Origin: an uncultured Ruminococcus sp. | GTDB taxonomy: Bacteria; Bacillota; Clostridia; Oscillospirales; Ruminococcaceae | Direction: 5' to 3' | NCBI GenBank assembly: GCA_900315755.1 | Contig: ONAI01000004.1 | Coordinates: forward strand, 1-49,080 | DNA: 49,080 bases | Shown here: in pieces, positions 2,603 through 32,807 of the stretch | Layout of the letters: each line of letters opens with the position of its first letter | How positions within the stretch are numbered: position 1 is the first letter of the stretch | Translations under genes and position numbers: made by a program | Notes under the pieces: model-generated | The model's input: the letters and a program-made list of their open reading frames with translations, nothing else | Told to the model about the DNA's origin: nothing | Database searches by the model: none

Positions 2603-3469
2603 ATGATCAAGAACAGAAAAGGCGAGATCATCGTCACAAATAAAAAACAGAACAAGCTGCTGAAACTGCTCTATGGTTCAGTCGGCGGAAGAATAATGCT
2701 CAAGCTTTTAACTGCACCTGCTCTTTCAAGAGCCGCAGGAAGATTCATGGATTCACGTCTTTCAAAGCCGCTCATAAAACGCTTCATCAGAAGCAGCGGC
2801 ATTGATACCTCACAATACGTGATGTACAATTTCCCGTCATATAACGCTTTCTTTACAAGAAGTGTCAAGCCGGAAATGCGGCCTGTCGATATGACACCGC
2901 AGCACCTTATAAGTCCGTGCGACTCAAAGCTTTCGGTATACCGTATCGACCGCAAGAGTATTTTCCGGATAAAGGGTTCTCGCTACCGCATATCAGACCT
3001 CATCGACCACAAATTCCTCGCAGACCGTTTCAACGGCGGACTCTGCCTGATATTCCGCCTTGAGGTCGACGATTACCACCGCTACTGCTATATCGACAGC
3101 GGCGTTAAAACAGGCAACACCTTCATCGAAGGCGTACTGCATACCGTAAACCCGATAGCGCTCGAAAAATACAACATCTATAAGCGCAACAGCCGCGAAT
3201 ATACTCTTATACATACTGATAATTTCGGCGATGTTATACAGGTAGAGGTCGGCGCGATGATGGTAGGACGTATCTGCAATCATGATGAGGCAGGTCCTGT
3301 AAAGCGCGGTCAGGAAAAAGGTATGTTTGAATTCGGAGGGTCAACCATCGTCGTTCTTCTTGAAAAAGGAAAAGCCTCTATCGACAAAGACATATTGAAA
3401 AACTCAGCAGAGGGTTATGAGACTATTGTTAAATACGGTGAAAAAATCGGAACTTCACTAAACTCATAA
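2603..3469 (+). CDS. psd: phosphatidylserine decarboxylase proenzyme
   Basis: A 288-residue pyruvoyl-dependent enzyme that converts phosphatidylserine to phosphatidylethanolamine at the membrane. The self-cleavage site is visible as FEFGGST, cutting between Gly246 and Ser247; Ser247 becomes the pyruvoyl group on the small alpha chain. Upstream family features include NAFFTRSVKPEMRPVD near residue 78 and SPCDSKL near residue 103. The start overlaps the end of the previous gene (2-bp gap) and has no strong ribosome site, which suggests translational coupling. No phosphatidylserine synthase gene is adjacent. A later in-frame ATG was not favoured because family members have an N-terminal stretch. 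Confidence 0.9.
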   Translation: MIKNRKGEIIVTNKKQNKLLKLLYGSVGGRIMLKLLTAPALSRAAGRFMDSRLSKPLIKRFIRSSGIDTSQYVMYNFPSYNAFFTRSVKPEMRPVDMTPQHLISPCDSKLSVYRIDRKSIFRIKGSRYRISDLIDHKFLADRFNGGLCLIFRLEVDDYHRYCYIDSGVKTGNTFIEGVLHTVNPIALEKYNIYKRNSREYTLIHTDNFGDVIQVEVGAMMVGRICNHDEAGPVKRGQEKGMFEFGGSTIVVLLEKGKASIDKDILKNSAEGYETIVKYGEKIGTSLNS

Positions 3470-3485
3470 AAAGGAGAATGCTAAT

Positions 3486-4040
3486 ATGAAATGTCCATAT
3501 TGCGGTGCAGAACTGCTTAATAACGCAAAATTTTGTGAGGAATGCGGTGCGGCAACAGGAAACGATAACTATTCGTCTTCTGCACCTCAGTTTTCTCAGC
3601 CATACGGTCAGCAGCAACAGAACAGCCGTCCTCAGGTCGATCCTAACTACGTGCCTGATCCGCCGGCTTTTGTAACTTTTCCTCAGGCTGTTAAGATGTT
3701 CTTCAAGAACTGGAACAACTTCAGCGGAAGATCTACAAGAAGCGAATTCTGGTACGCTTATATCCTGCAAATGATCATCGGAACAGTCGCAGGATATATC
3801 GGTATGGGAAATTACACAGTAACTCTTTTAGCTTCCGGACTCGTTTCACTGATATTATTCATTCCTTTTCTTGCAGCTTCAGTACGCAGACTTCACGATA
3901 TCGGAAAAAGCGGCTGGTGGTATCTGATCGCCTTTACCTGTATCGGAGCATTTTTCCTGCTCTATTGGTATGCACAGCCCGGCGACCCGAACGAGAATAT
4001 GTATGGTCCTTCCGCAGAACAGAAAAACCGCGGACTATAA
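3486..4040 (+). CDS. zinc-ribbon DUF805 membrane protein
   Basis: A 184-residue protein. Residues 1-20 form a treble-clef zinc ribbon (CPYCG...FCEECG), followed by a Q/S/P-rich linker to about residue 60. The rest matches DUF805: an amphipathic 'FFKNWNNFSGRSTRSEFWYAYI' entry, about three hydrophobic segments (near 98-115, 118-135 and 155-172), and the conserved ASVRRLHDIGKSGWW motif followed by a PGDPNENMYGP tail. DUF805 proteins are inner-membrane proteins of unknown function. The ribosome site AAAGGAG lies about 8 bases upstream. It follows psd by 16 bp and ends at a bidirectional terminator, so it is probably the last gene of the dehydratase-psd unit. Confidence 0.8.
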   Translation: MKCPYCGAELLNNAKFCEECGAATGNDNYSSSAPQFSQPYGQQQQNSRPQVDPNYVPDPPAFVTFPQAVKMFFKNWNNFSGRSTRSEFWYAYILQMIIGTVAGYIGMGNYTVTLLASGLVSLILFIPFLAASVRRLHDIGKSGWWYLIAFTCIGAFFLLYWYAQPGDPNENMYGPSAEQKNRGL

Positions 4041-14781: not shown

Positions 14782-15133
14782 TAAGGGCAGCCCCTGTAAG
14801 TGCGAGACTTATATAGAATTATATGCGAGACTTATCGGGGAAAAACCCCTTTCCAAAGAATTTTATTTCGTTTTTTCGCAATGTTATAAAAAATTCCGGA
14901 AGCTAATCAAAAGCTTCCGGTTTTCTTTTTCTTGAAAGATGATTATACCATTGCGAAAAAACACGATGAAAGTTTTAGGAAGGGAGTTTGAGGGTGACTC
15001 CCCGCAGTGCGAGGAGATGTCCGAAGGACAAATGGGACCGCCGCTGTTGGCGGAACCCTTTTTCAAACGGGTTTCCCTCAATGAATCCCACAAATGTTTC
15101 TAATAAGCATTACACTTACAGGGGCAACCCTTA
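14782..15133. repeat. ~350-bp palindromic element bounded by 21-bp terminal inverted repeats (MITE-like)
   Basis: The left end TAAGGGCAGCCCCTGTAAGTG (14782-14802) and the right end (15113-15133, reverse complement TAAGGGTTGCCCCTGTAAGTG) match at 19 of 21 positions. Inside are an 11-bp direct repeat TGCGAGACTTA (14801-14811, 14824-14834), a perfect 14-bp inverted repeat GTTTTTTCGCAATG (14870-14883 versus 14949-14962), and a central terminator-like hairpin. A multi-stem module follows at 14989-15080. No transposase frame is present, so a non-autonomous element or large repetitive intergenic unit is the best description. Confidence 0.65.
14896..14930 (+). terminator. terminator-like hairpin downstream of carB
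   Basis: A stem CCGGAAGCT (14896-14904) / AGCTTCCGG (14912-14920) followed by TTTTCTTTTT. It is the first good terminator after carB, though it lies within the inverted-repeat element. Confidence 0.8.
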
Positions 15134-15140
15134 TTAAATA

Positions 15141-15383
15141 TCAGTCGCCGTCGAGACCACTTACGATGTCGCCGACAGCATCGGTAACACCCTTGATGAG
15201 GTCTCCGCCGGCATCTCCGGCACCCTGTACAGCATCGCTTACGTGTTCACCGACAGAGTTGCTGAACATAGTTGTAGACTCCGATCTGTCGTTTGAATCA
15301 TAATCGGTATCATCCGATCCGCAGGATGTGAAAGCTGTACACACGGTAAAAAATATGGAGCATATTGCTAAAAGCTTTTTCAT
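15141..15383 (-). CDS. small lipoprotein, function unknown
   Basis: An 80-residue protein starting MKKLLAICSIFFTVCTAFTSCGSDD, a lipoprotein signal with lipobox FTSC (Cys near residue 21). The mature part is Asp/Ser-rich, then an Ala/Gly/Val/Asp amphipathic stretch (VSDAVQGAGDAGGDLIKG and so on). The start at 15383 fits AAAGGA about 10 bases upstream; an earlier ATG at 15392 is too close to it. The stop lies only 8 bp from the right end of the inverted-repeat element. Its upstream region is the DnaA-box cluster, so DnaA could affect its expression; that is inference. Confidence 0.65.
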   Translation of the reverse strand: MKKLLAICSIFFTVCTAFTSCGSDDTDYDSNDRSESTTMFSNSVGEHVSDAVQGAGDAGGDLIKGVTDAVGDIVSGLDGD

Positions 15384-15409
15384 ATAAATCATATCCTTTA
15401 CTTTTGATT

Positions 15410-15613
15410 GTTGTGGAGTGCTTTTCCACAACTTAATTTTATTATTTACGCTTTTTCTTTGATTATCCACACGTTTTCAAAGTTTTTTTCACTTATTAAA
15501 AGTGAATATACCGTTGTTTTCCACCTATTCAACATAGTTTTCAACAATGTATGCTATAACTCCACATCTGTTTCCACATCATGTTGAAAACTTATTCACA
15601 GTCGTGTGGAAAA
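15410..15613. other. dense DnaA-box cluster away from dnaA
   Basis: A non-coding stretch with consensus or one-mismatch DnaA boxes: TTTTCCACA 15422-15430, TTATCCACA 15463-15471, TTTTCCACC 15517-15525, TTATTCACA 15592-15600 and TGTGGAAAA 15605-15613 (reverse). Variant TTTTCAACA boxes lie at 15538-15546 and, reversed, at 15582-15590. Weaker ones are AACTCCACA 15558-15566 and GTTTCCACA 15570-15578. A GTTGTGGA/TCCACAAC inverted pair lies at 15410-15417/15425-15432. It is between divergent genes (lipoprotein and DUF2461), about 17 kb from dnaA. It could be a DnaA titration or regulatory site or a distal origin segment. Confidence 0.7.
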
Positions 15614-15661
15614 GAATTAGGATTATATTGCTGTAAAATTCAGGCAGTTTTGTTCATATTC

Positions 15662-15690
15662 TTGAATTGTCTCAAAACATATGGTATAAT
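15662..15690 (+). promoter_or_regulatory. promoter of the DUF2461 gene
   Basis: TTGAAT (15662-15667), a 17-base spacer and TATAAT (15685-15690), just downstream of the DnaA-box cluster. The ATG at 15720 follows GGAGGAG. Confidence 0.8.
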
Positions 15691-15719
15691 TGTTGAAGCA
15701 ACTATTTTGGAGGAGTTAA

Positions 15720-16466
15720 ATGTTTAAGGGATTTTCTAAAGATGCACTGGATTTTCTGCTCGGCATCAGACTGAACAACAACAAAGAGTGGTTTGAGCCT
15801 CGAAAACAACTCTACATCGAAAAAGTATATGAACCAATGAAAGAACTCGGAAATGAACTGTTTGCGCCTTTTTCAGATAATAAGGACTTCGTCTGCAAGG
15901 TAGGACGAATTTACCGCGATGAAAAATTTCCGCCTTATCTGCATTACAGAGACACAATGTGGATATACGTCCGCTATGACGCATACTACTGGAACAGAAC
16001 ACCTACTTTGTATTTTGAGCTGTCACCGGAAGGTGCAGAGTACGGTTTCCGCATTTCAAAGCCGGAAGCCGCAGTTATGGAACGTTTCCGCAGTCAGCTT
16101 GCAGAAGATCATGAACCGTTTATTGAAATGATAGAGCGTCTTGAAAAGCATTATGGGTTAACTATCGGGGGCGATGAGTACAAACGCGGAAAACCTTGCA
16201 GCATCCCCGAAGCTGAGCGCTTTTTCAATAAAAAAGGACTCAGTGCCTATATTAAGGTAACTGAGCCCGAAATGCTTTATTCATCGGAATTAAGCCGGAA
16301 TGTCAGCGAAATCTTTGAAGCACTCGTTCCGCTGAACGACTATTTTCATGATATAGTACAGATAGAAGAGATCGCAAAAGCACTTGAACGTGAAGCAAAA
16401 TCAACCGAGATCTCTGAACCTGAAATAAATATGGTAAAAGCTCCTGAAACGGAGTTTATGTGGTAA
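15720..16466 (+). CDS. DUF2461 family protein
   Basis: A 248-residue cytoplasmic protein. The opening MFKGFSKDALDFLLGIRLNNNKEWFEPRKQLY, the 'VGRIYRDEKFPPYLHYRDTMWIYVR' block near residue 62 and the 'LYFELSPEGAEYGFRIS' block near residue 98 match the DUF2461/TIGR02453 family, whose function is unknown. The length is normal. GGAGGAG precedes the ATG and a strong promoter lies 30 bases upstream. It is convergent with the next gene (13-bp gap). Confidence 0.8.
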   Translation: MFKGFSKDALDFLLGIRLNNNKEWFEPRKQLYIEKVYEPMKELGNELFAPFSDNKDFVCKVGRIYRDEKFPPYLHYRDTMWIYVRYDAYYWNRTPTLYFELSPEGAEYGFRISKPEAAVMERFRSQLAEDHEPFIEMIERLEKHYGLTIGGDEYKRGKPCSIPEAERFFNKKGLSAYIKVTEPEMLYSSELSRNVSEIFEALVPLNDYFHDIVQIEEIAKALEREAKSTEISEPEINMVKAPETEFMW

Positions 16467-32351: not shown

Positions 32352-32807
32352 TATAAAATTACCTCCGGTGATAGGTGAAGCCATCCGGCTTCTGAAAAAG
32401 ATGTGTTATGCCAGAATAAATTATAGTAATATATAAATAAATATATTGTTGTTGTTATAGGGGCGGTGGAAAAGTTGAGACAGGCTTTATATGGCTATAT
32501 ATTGTTTCAAACTCGTCCACAAGGGTATGTTGCCGGATCTTTGAAAAATGTAGGAAACTTTTTGATGTGACCTGTTTTCTGTTGAATAGGTTAAACCGTG
32601 TTAAGCAGAAGTTGAGATTTATGTTGAATTATGTATGGCAATTATGAGATCGTTTTTTCTGATCCGGAAAATGTTAGTGTTGAAAATTAAAAAATGTGGA
32701 AAGTAAAAATTCACATGGAAATAATTCTTCGTAAATAGAAGATCTGTATTCAAAATTACTTTAAACACATTGTTGAAAACTGTGTTGATTGAGCGAGTTT
32801 TCAACAA
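32352..32807. other. dnaA-dnaN intergenic region, probable oriC segment
   Basis: A 456-bp non-coding gap. Near dnaN lies a very AT-rich stretch (32416-32458), a candidate DNA unwinding element. DnaA-box-like sites are GGTGGAAAA 32465-32473 and TGTGGAAAG 32695-32703. An inverted pair of the variant box sits beside the dnaA stop: TGTTGAAAACT 32771-32781 and AGTTTTCAACA 32796-32806. The + strand is visibly G-rich relative to C from 32.46 to 32.70 kb. The layout parallels the downstream half of the bipartite B. subtilis oriC. A 62-codon minus-strand frame here has no ribosome site. Confidence 0.65.

Follow-up and report, generated by a model that had tools for sequence, protein, structure and literature searches.

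The 49,080-nucleotide window analysed here, contig C52 of a 2.45-Mb draft Ruminococcus genome in 123 contigs (G000), carries a conserved 237-bp element rich in DnaA boxes (E1; positions 15396–15632, + strand), which adjoins the gene for a small lipoprotein. E1 is found in most genomes of the genus, includes a hairpin of the lipoprotein mRNA leader and shares a core of tandem boxes and a convergent box pair with a second locus, E2; the convergent pair is itself concentrated at E1, at E2 and in the gap between dnaA and dnaN. The E2 locus, the shared pair and the leader hairpin were not foreseen in the original prediction. Outside Bacillus, the timing of replication by DnaA availability is little understood in Gram-positive bacteria. 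Judging from sequence, we lean with slightly better than even confidence towards E1 being a DnaA-binding locus for titration or regulation that also controls the lipoprotein gene, with E2 in the same circuit; titration or reactivation, along with promoter control, appears to be the most likely role of E1.

The E1 array and its conservation

A motif scan of the gap at 15384–15719 found nine boxes with at most one mismatch to TTWTNCACA, four of them exact. Dinucleotide-preserving shuffles of the same gap, 1000 in number, averaged 2.09 and 0.15 such boxes, peaked at seven and two and never reached the observed counts. The densest 200- and 250-base stretches of the window both fall here (nine and ten matches at up to one mismatch), and the next-densest stretches hold five. 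The gap had been described as denser than those flanking dnaA, which understated the case: no other stretch of the window equals it, and two of the four places in the draft genome with direct pairs of the form TTTTCMAC-N0–30-TTTTCMAC lie within it (reversed control, one place). Box totals show no comparable enrichment, TTATNCACA occurring 49 times in the whole window at up to one mismatch (49.3 expected) and exact TTWTNCACA 229 times in the draft genome against 180 for the reversed control, a mild excess. It is thus the clustering that is special, and E1 shows the above-chance concentration of several boxes in a few hundred bases that characterizes clusters of the DBC type.

The array comprises eleven box positions, whose retention was assessed over 66 distinct copies. 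B1 (TTTTCCACA, 15422–15430, +), within one mismatch in 65 of 65 copies, overlaps an arm of the leader hairpin, and B2 (TTATCCACA, 15463–15471, +; core in 64 of 66) overlaps the putative −35 element of the lipoprotein promoter. The B3 position (15475–15483, +) reads TTTTCAACT in 50 of 66 copies, retains the core in 58 of 66 and is degenerate in the window's genome. B4 (TTTTCCACC, 15517–15525, +; core in 64 of 65), B5 (TATTCAACA, 15526–15534, +; 65 of 65) and B6 (TTTTCAACA, 15538–15546, +; 65 of 66) are arranged head to tail with starts 9 and 12 bp apart. They are followed by the weak box B7 (..TCCACA, 15558–15566, +), with the core in 59 of 65 copies and only seven of 65 within one mismatch of TTWTNMACA. 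B8 (GTTTCCACA, 15570–15578, +; core in 65 of 66, within one mismatch in 50 of 66) and B9 (TTTTCAACA, 15582–15590, −; 66 of 66) converge with 3 bp between them and form the pair TTCMACA-N3-TGTKGAA at 15572–15588. B10 (TTATTCACA, 15592–15600, +) is less conserved (core in 40 of 63), and B11 (TTTTCCACA, 15605–15613, −) keeps its core in 51 of 61. Every site named in the original prediction was recovered, at B1, B2, B4, B6, B9 and B10 and, as TGTGGAAAA, at B11 (15605, −). The right edge of E1 is formed by a non-box motif, ATATTGCT (15625–15632, +), invariant in the first ten aligned copies and of high information in the 66. Nine of the eleven boxes, B1 to B9, keep the core in at least 58 of 65–66 distinct copies, and the mean information of the 66-copy alignment is 1.54 bits in box columns versus 1.08 outside them.

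The distribution of E1 was determined with R1, a sequence-only model built from ten relatives including the window (mean column identity 79%), which scores the window's own element at 170.6 bits. Among 80 genomes of the genus, the window's own included, R1 gave 54 matches above 100 bits in 52 genomes and further matches of 42–87 bits in four, placing E1 in 56 of 80 genomes, many of the compared genomes being incomplete drafts. The maximum in 196 other genomes of the order (197 drawn, including the window's own) was 34.3 bits. The alignment comprised 91 matches from 92 sources, reduced to 66 distinct copies. The original prediction hinged on the boxes being kept in related genomes, and in Ruminococcus relatives they are; a 34-base E1 pattern was likewise found on 48 contigs of named genomes, mostly Ruminococcus flavefaciens or Ruminococcus sp. 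Over the same 12 genomes, mean pairwise identity was 0.704 for E1, 0.44 for the dnaA–dnaN gap and 0.763 for the dnaA gene, a comparison tilted towards E1 because these genomes were picked for carrying it. Two drafts, G034 (C86, C8) and G065 (C6, C24), contain two strong E1 matches each, from duplication or a mixed bin. A plasmid collection gave no match to the DNA of the E1 region; with the DnaA protein it gave 62 records, all below 60% identity.

Position relative to dnaA and the main origin

Summed along the window in 2-kb steps, GC skew reaches its minimum near 32 kb, where dnaN and dnaA lie, and shows no turn at 15.5 kb. The skew at fourfold sites of minus-strand genes is less clean: it is +0.138 to the left of E1, +0.246 between E1 and dnaN, +0.56 in dnaA and +0.587 at the right end, so that the stretch from E1 to dnaN is nearer to the left-side value. 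The dnaA–dnaN gap (32385–32807, −) contains a DnaA box at 32465–32473 (−), a G+C-richer spacer, trio repeats and an AT-rich stretch, and in an alignment of 12 genomes, read by eye, this arrangement is retained. It matches the clostridial oriC2 as described in the accessible portions of one report (PMC7561715). Boxes of the TTTTCMACA type seen in E1 also fill this gap, and one stands next to the trios. Trio repeats were not seen, by eye, in the E1 consensus of 66 copies, nor was the succession of DnaA box, G+C-rich spacer and DnaA-trio leading into an AT-rich stretch, and E1 has no GC-skew turning point. E1 was accordingly rejected as the main origin, and the likely main oriC is the dnaA–dnaN gap, in agreement with the expectation that the main origin is still next to dnaA. 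By GC skew, by the features of the dnaA–dnaN gap and by distance, E1 lies outside oriC.

E1 is 17,179 bp from dnaA, matching the predicted figure of about 17 kb. For 31 of the 54 strong E1 matches dnaA is on the same contig, and all of these are downstream of it, 30 at 11.2–23.3 kb and one at 45 kb; the other 23 are either on a different contig from dnaA or in a genome where no dnaA was matched. The orientation of E1 relative to dnaA is the same in 20 of the 31 and opposite in 11. In G063, G103 and G084 the lipoprotein gene is 17.5–19.3 kb from dnaA and no box cluster was found there among the four densest clusters per region. Since these relatives hold the gene equally far from dnaA without the boxes, the distance reflects gene order (synteny) and was discarded as a sign of selection. 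Elsewhere in the window's genome, a 180-aa frame (C20, 2773–3255) is 38% identical to the AAA+ portion of DnaA and may encode a DnaA-like or helicase-loader-like protein.

The lipoprotein gene and the second locus

The gene beside E1 (15141–15383, −) encodes an 80-aa lipoprotein (MKKLLAICSIFF..SCG) with acidic repeats. A lipoprotein-like frame, called by a simple rule of signal peptide plus composition, starts beside E1 in all 64 copies (of 66) with enough flank, 11–23 nt from the E1 edge in 63 of them and at −34 in one. The protein had no family in Pfam and its NCBIfam matches were all under the cut-off; an Rfam search of 15100–15800 returned nothing at E values up to 1. A putative promoter for the gene, TGGATA-17-AATAAT (15441–15469, −), is a weak computed match (9 of 12), and its −10 element lies in a block, TTTATTRTTTAC in + strand letters (15438–15449, −), that is conserved in the 66-copy alignment. 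The mRNA leader contains a hairpin (15410–15432, −) whose pairing is kept across copies: eight pairs, summed over 66 copies, comprise 463 Watson–Crick pairs, 45 G–U pairs and nine mismatches on the mRNA strand, compared with 463, five and 49 on the opposite strand. A scan had proposed the hairpin as a + strand terminator, which we rejected because the substitutions leave the pairing largely intact when read on the lipoprotein mRNA strand but far less so on the + strand. Folding of the sequence from the window's genome points the other way, the + strand being the better folded (z of −4.8 versus −3.3 for the mRNA strand).

In G063 and G103, which lack the boxes, the region upstream of the lipoprotein gene still holds a TTTATTGTTTAC block and an inverted repeat whose arms differ in sequence, so the promoter block and the repeat appear to belong to the gene and not to the array. 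On the other side of E1, the DUF2461 gene (15720–16466, +; promoter-like site at 15662–15690) was rejected as a partner gene: it lies to the right of E1 in some genomes only, others having different genes there, and in G035 it is 6 kb from E1. A search of viral contigs for DUF2461 found none. The notion of a DnaA-controlled divergent promoter region is therefore supported on the lipoprotein side, where the gene adjoins E1 in all 64 copies with flank, and not on that of the variable neighbour.

Box-pair patterns and weak R1 matches elsewhere in the genomes of the genus led to E2. Twenty places hand-picked from these two sources were used to build a second model, R2 (alignment A4); all 20, which match R2 by construction, contain a GTTTAAAC-like sequence and TTCAACA-N3-TGTTGA, and flanking protein similarity is common to 19. 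At a threshold of at least 41 bits, R2 places E2 in 56 of the 80 genus genomes, and in 146 other genomes sampled from the order no score exceeded 29.4 bits. The E2 core resembles that of E1, with tandem boxes (12 and 9 bp) and the convergent pair. In the window's genome E2 lies at C121:51835–52016 (94.6 bits; locus L219, near 3323–3530), between YpsA-like and LytR-like genes, and its middle tandem box is degenerate. Over 36 E2 loci, of which the core expression missed two (L223 and L231), a LytR-like gene, followed by TatD and PP2C genes, flanks 35, and a YpsA-like gene lies opposite in 33; L216 has neither. At this last locus (G011:C36, about 2824–2854 of L216) the core sits between genes that read as glycoside-hydrolase-like in translation, with no LytR-like gene nearby, and it is probably a moved copy. 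The 33 R2 matches in the genus below 41 bits comprise 27 at E1, four beside dnaA and two elsewhere, a distribution that reveals the shared core. In G035, assembled as one 3.6-Mb contig, dnaA is at 2,477,755, E1 at 2,460,487 and E2 at 2,005,943, the last 472 kb from dnaA.

Across 20 genomes the convergent pair TTCMACA-N3-TGTKGAA occurs at 52 places, one to four per genome, compared with a single place for the reversed control; 19 are in E1, 20 in E2 and five in the dnaA–dnaN gap, 44 in all, and eight are elsewhere. The window's genome has only two, in E1 and in E2, and the E1 of G013 lacks the pair. Five of the sites elsewhere (L238, L240, L242, L243 and L245) share flanking protein similarity and possibly constitute a third conserved convergent-pair site; the pair of L238 adjoins genes that read from translation as CobW-like and metal-ATPase-like.

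Both elements are present in 52 of the 80 genomes, E1 only in four, E2 only in four and neither in 20, these being raw counts that ignore shared ancestry and include several incomplete genomes. In a tree of DnaA from 38 members of the genus and two others, some deep forks of which are poorly supported, the 11 of these 20 genomes that were included fall in four places: G016; G002, G003, G101, G063 and G103; G025, G084 and G085; and G073 and G089. G026, which has only a weak E1, groups with the second set. The sister pair G073 and G089 has no strong R1 match; dense box clusters (scores of 22 and 20 in 250 bp) nevertheless lie beyond the M20 gene at the expected place of E1 (G073:C16, 162760–163330; G089:C11, 138030–138590), with a lipoprotein gene found in G073 and not in G089. 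The dnaA flanks of G063 and G103 also score low for boxes, so the box type of these two genomes may differ. Some of the 20 genomes may be remodelled.

Candidate functions of E1 and E2

In the mechanism that we favour, DnaA would assemble a cooperative complex on the head-to-tail boxes and the convergent pair of E1, which would bind DnaA, and so titrate it or perhaps change its state, shortly after duplication of the origin region. Lying over the promoter and leader, E1 would also make the lipoprotein gene responsive to DnaA; repression would be the simplest form of this, given that B1 and B2 overlie the leader and the putative −35 element. E2, with a similar core and different neighbours, may belong to the same circuit of DnaA control.

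The strict link with the lipoprotein gene fits plain promoter control equally well. E1 could be solely a DnaA-regulated promoter: DnaA would control transcription of the lipoprotein gene, as it does at sda or ywlC of B. subtilis, and the effect on initiation would be negligible. We regard this as possible, if doubtful. It would account for the constant adjacency of gene and array in either orientation to dnaA, for the overlap of boxes with the putative promoter and leader hairpin, and for the persistence of the promoter block and an inverted repeat in G063 and G103. About ten boxes, however, would seem to exceed the needs of a promoter; the lipoprotein gene occurs without the cluster in G063, G103 and G084, and the E2 core adjoins other genes, glycoside-hydrolase-like ones in G011. 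It is improbable that the boxes serve another DNA-binding protein with a TTTTCMACA-like motif, as the departure of TTTTCAACA from the classical TTATCCACA might suggest and as the invariant ATATTGCT edge, which hints at a further factor, might too; TTTTCCACA and TTATCCACA match the standard DnaA consensus, and TTTTCMACA boxes populate the dnaA–dnaN gap, one of them next to the trios. A distal or alternative chromosomal origin module, another proposal of the original prediction, is very improbable: E1 is AT-rich and has tandem head-to-tail boxes as origins do, but it shows no skew turn, the trios present in the dnaA–dnaN gap were not seen in its consensus, and its orientation to dnaA varies among species. 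A chance cluster, for which only the G+C content of about 30% speaks, is already refuted by the shuffles and by the recurrence of E1 in the genus.

Among known systems, titration or regulation by E1 and E2 finds its closest parallel in the DBCs of B. subtilis. The available parts of two reports describe six DnaA regions outside oriC in that species, with 4 to 11 sites each (apparently box numbers) and several of them promoters (PMC4447404), and early initiation upon joint deletion of six DnaA-box clusters (PMC5295017). Like E1, the clusters at sda, ywlC, ywcI, yydA and gcp/ydiF lie in gaps outside oriC, several over DnaA-controlled promoters, as far as these sources extend (PMC5295017, PMC4447404). 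E1 and E2 differ from them in a fixed architecture held across most of the genus, in the shared tandem-plus-convergent core and in their neighbour genes.

A second parallel is with the reactivating sequences DARS1 and DARS2 of E. coli; a DARS releases ADP from DnaA, whereas datA of the same species stimulates DnaA-ATP hydrolysis. DARS1 of E. coli K-12 lies after bioD, where we found a + box followed by two − boxes (L236, 1608, 1622 and 1634). The convergent pair B8/B9 of E1, which is conserved and has further boxes beside it, resembles the opposed boxes of DARS. The pair spacing is 3 bp in E1 and 5 bp after bioD, and the tandem boxes of E1 are on the other side. The sections available give head-to-head boxes I and II plus a box III as the layout of E. 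coli DARS and call the opposed boxes essential (PMC10380432, PMC8682772), and the first of these reports conservation of DARS-like sequences across many species of proteobacteria (PMC10380432). The datA locus and a box-rich region near oriC of E. coli, proposed as DnaA sinks in the excerpts available (PMC12371093, PMC5295017), are like E1 in having several boxes in non-coding DNA near oriC, a likeness of description; datA, for its part, is stated in the accessible text to need IHF and a set spacing (PMC10380432). The bipartite oriC of Clostridioides difficile is, as here, a Firmicute origin with a DnaA-trio in the dnaA–dnaN gap; it differs in that the portion of the report at hand describes no remote cluster (PMC7561715). 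Our searches of open-access papers listed no report on such DnaA-box loci in Ruminococcus.

By analogy with these systems, E1 and E2 are best read as loci resembling the B. subtilis DBCs with a DARS-like pair. A more speculative and rather unlikely extension is that the two form a position-separated two-locus system of Gram-positive DnaA control, comparable to datA and DARS, in which the pair with the 3-bp spacer would switch the nucleotide or oligomer state of DnaA and which would be lost or remodelled as a whole.

For Ruminococcus, an important fibre-degrading genus of gut and rumen, two loci of fixed architecture, about 17 kb and several hundred kilobases from dnaA, are now named targets for studies of DnaA titration or reactivation. 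The convergent pair is a rare motif and is suited to mutation, and at E1 the boxes are tied to the gene of an envelope lipoprotein whose mRNA leader carries a hairpin.
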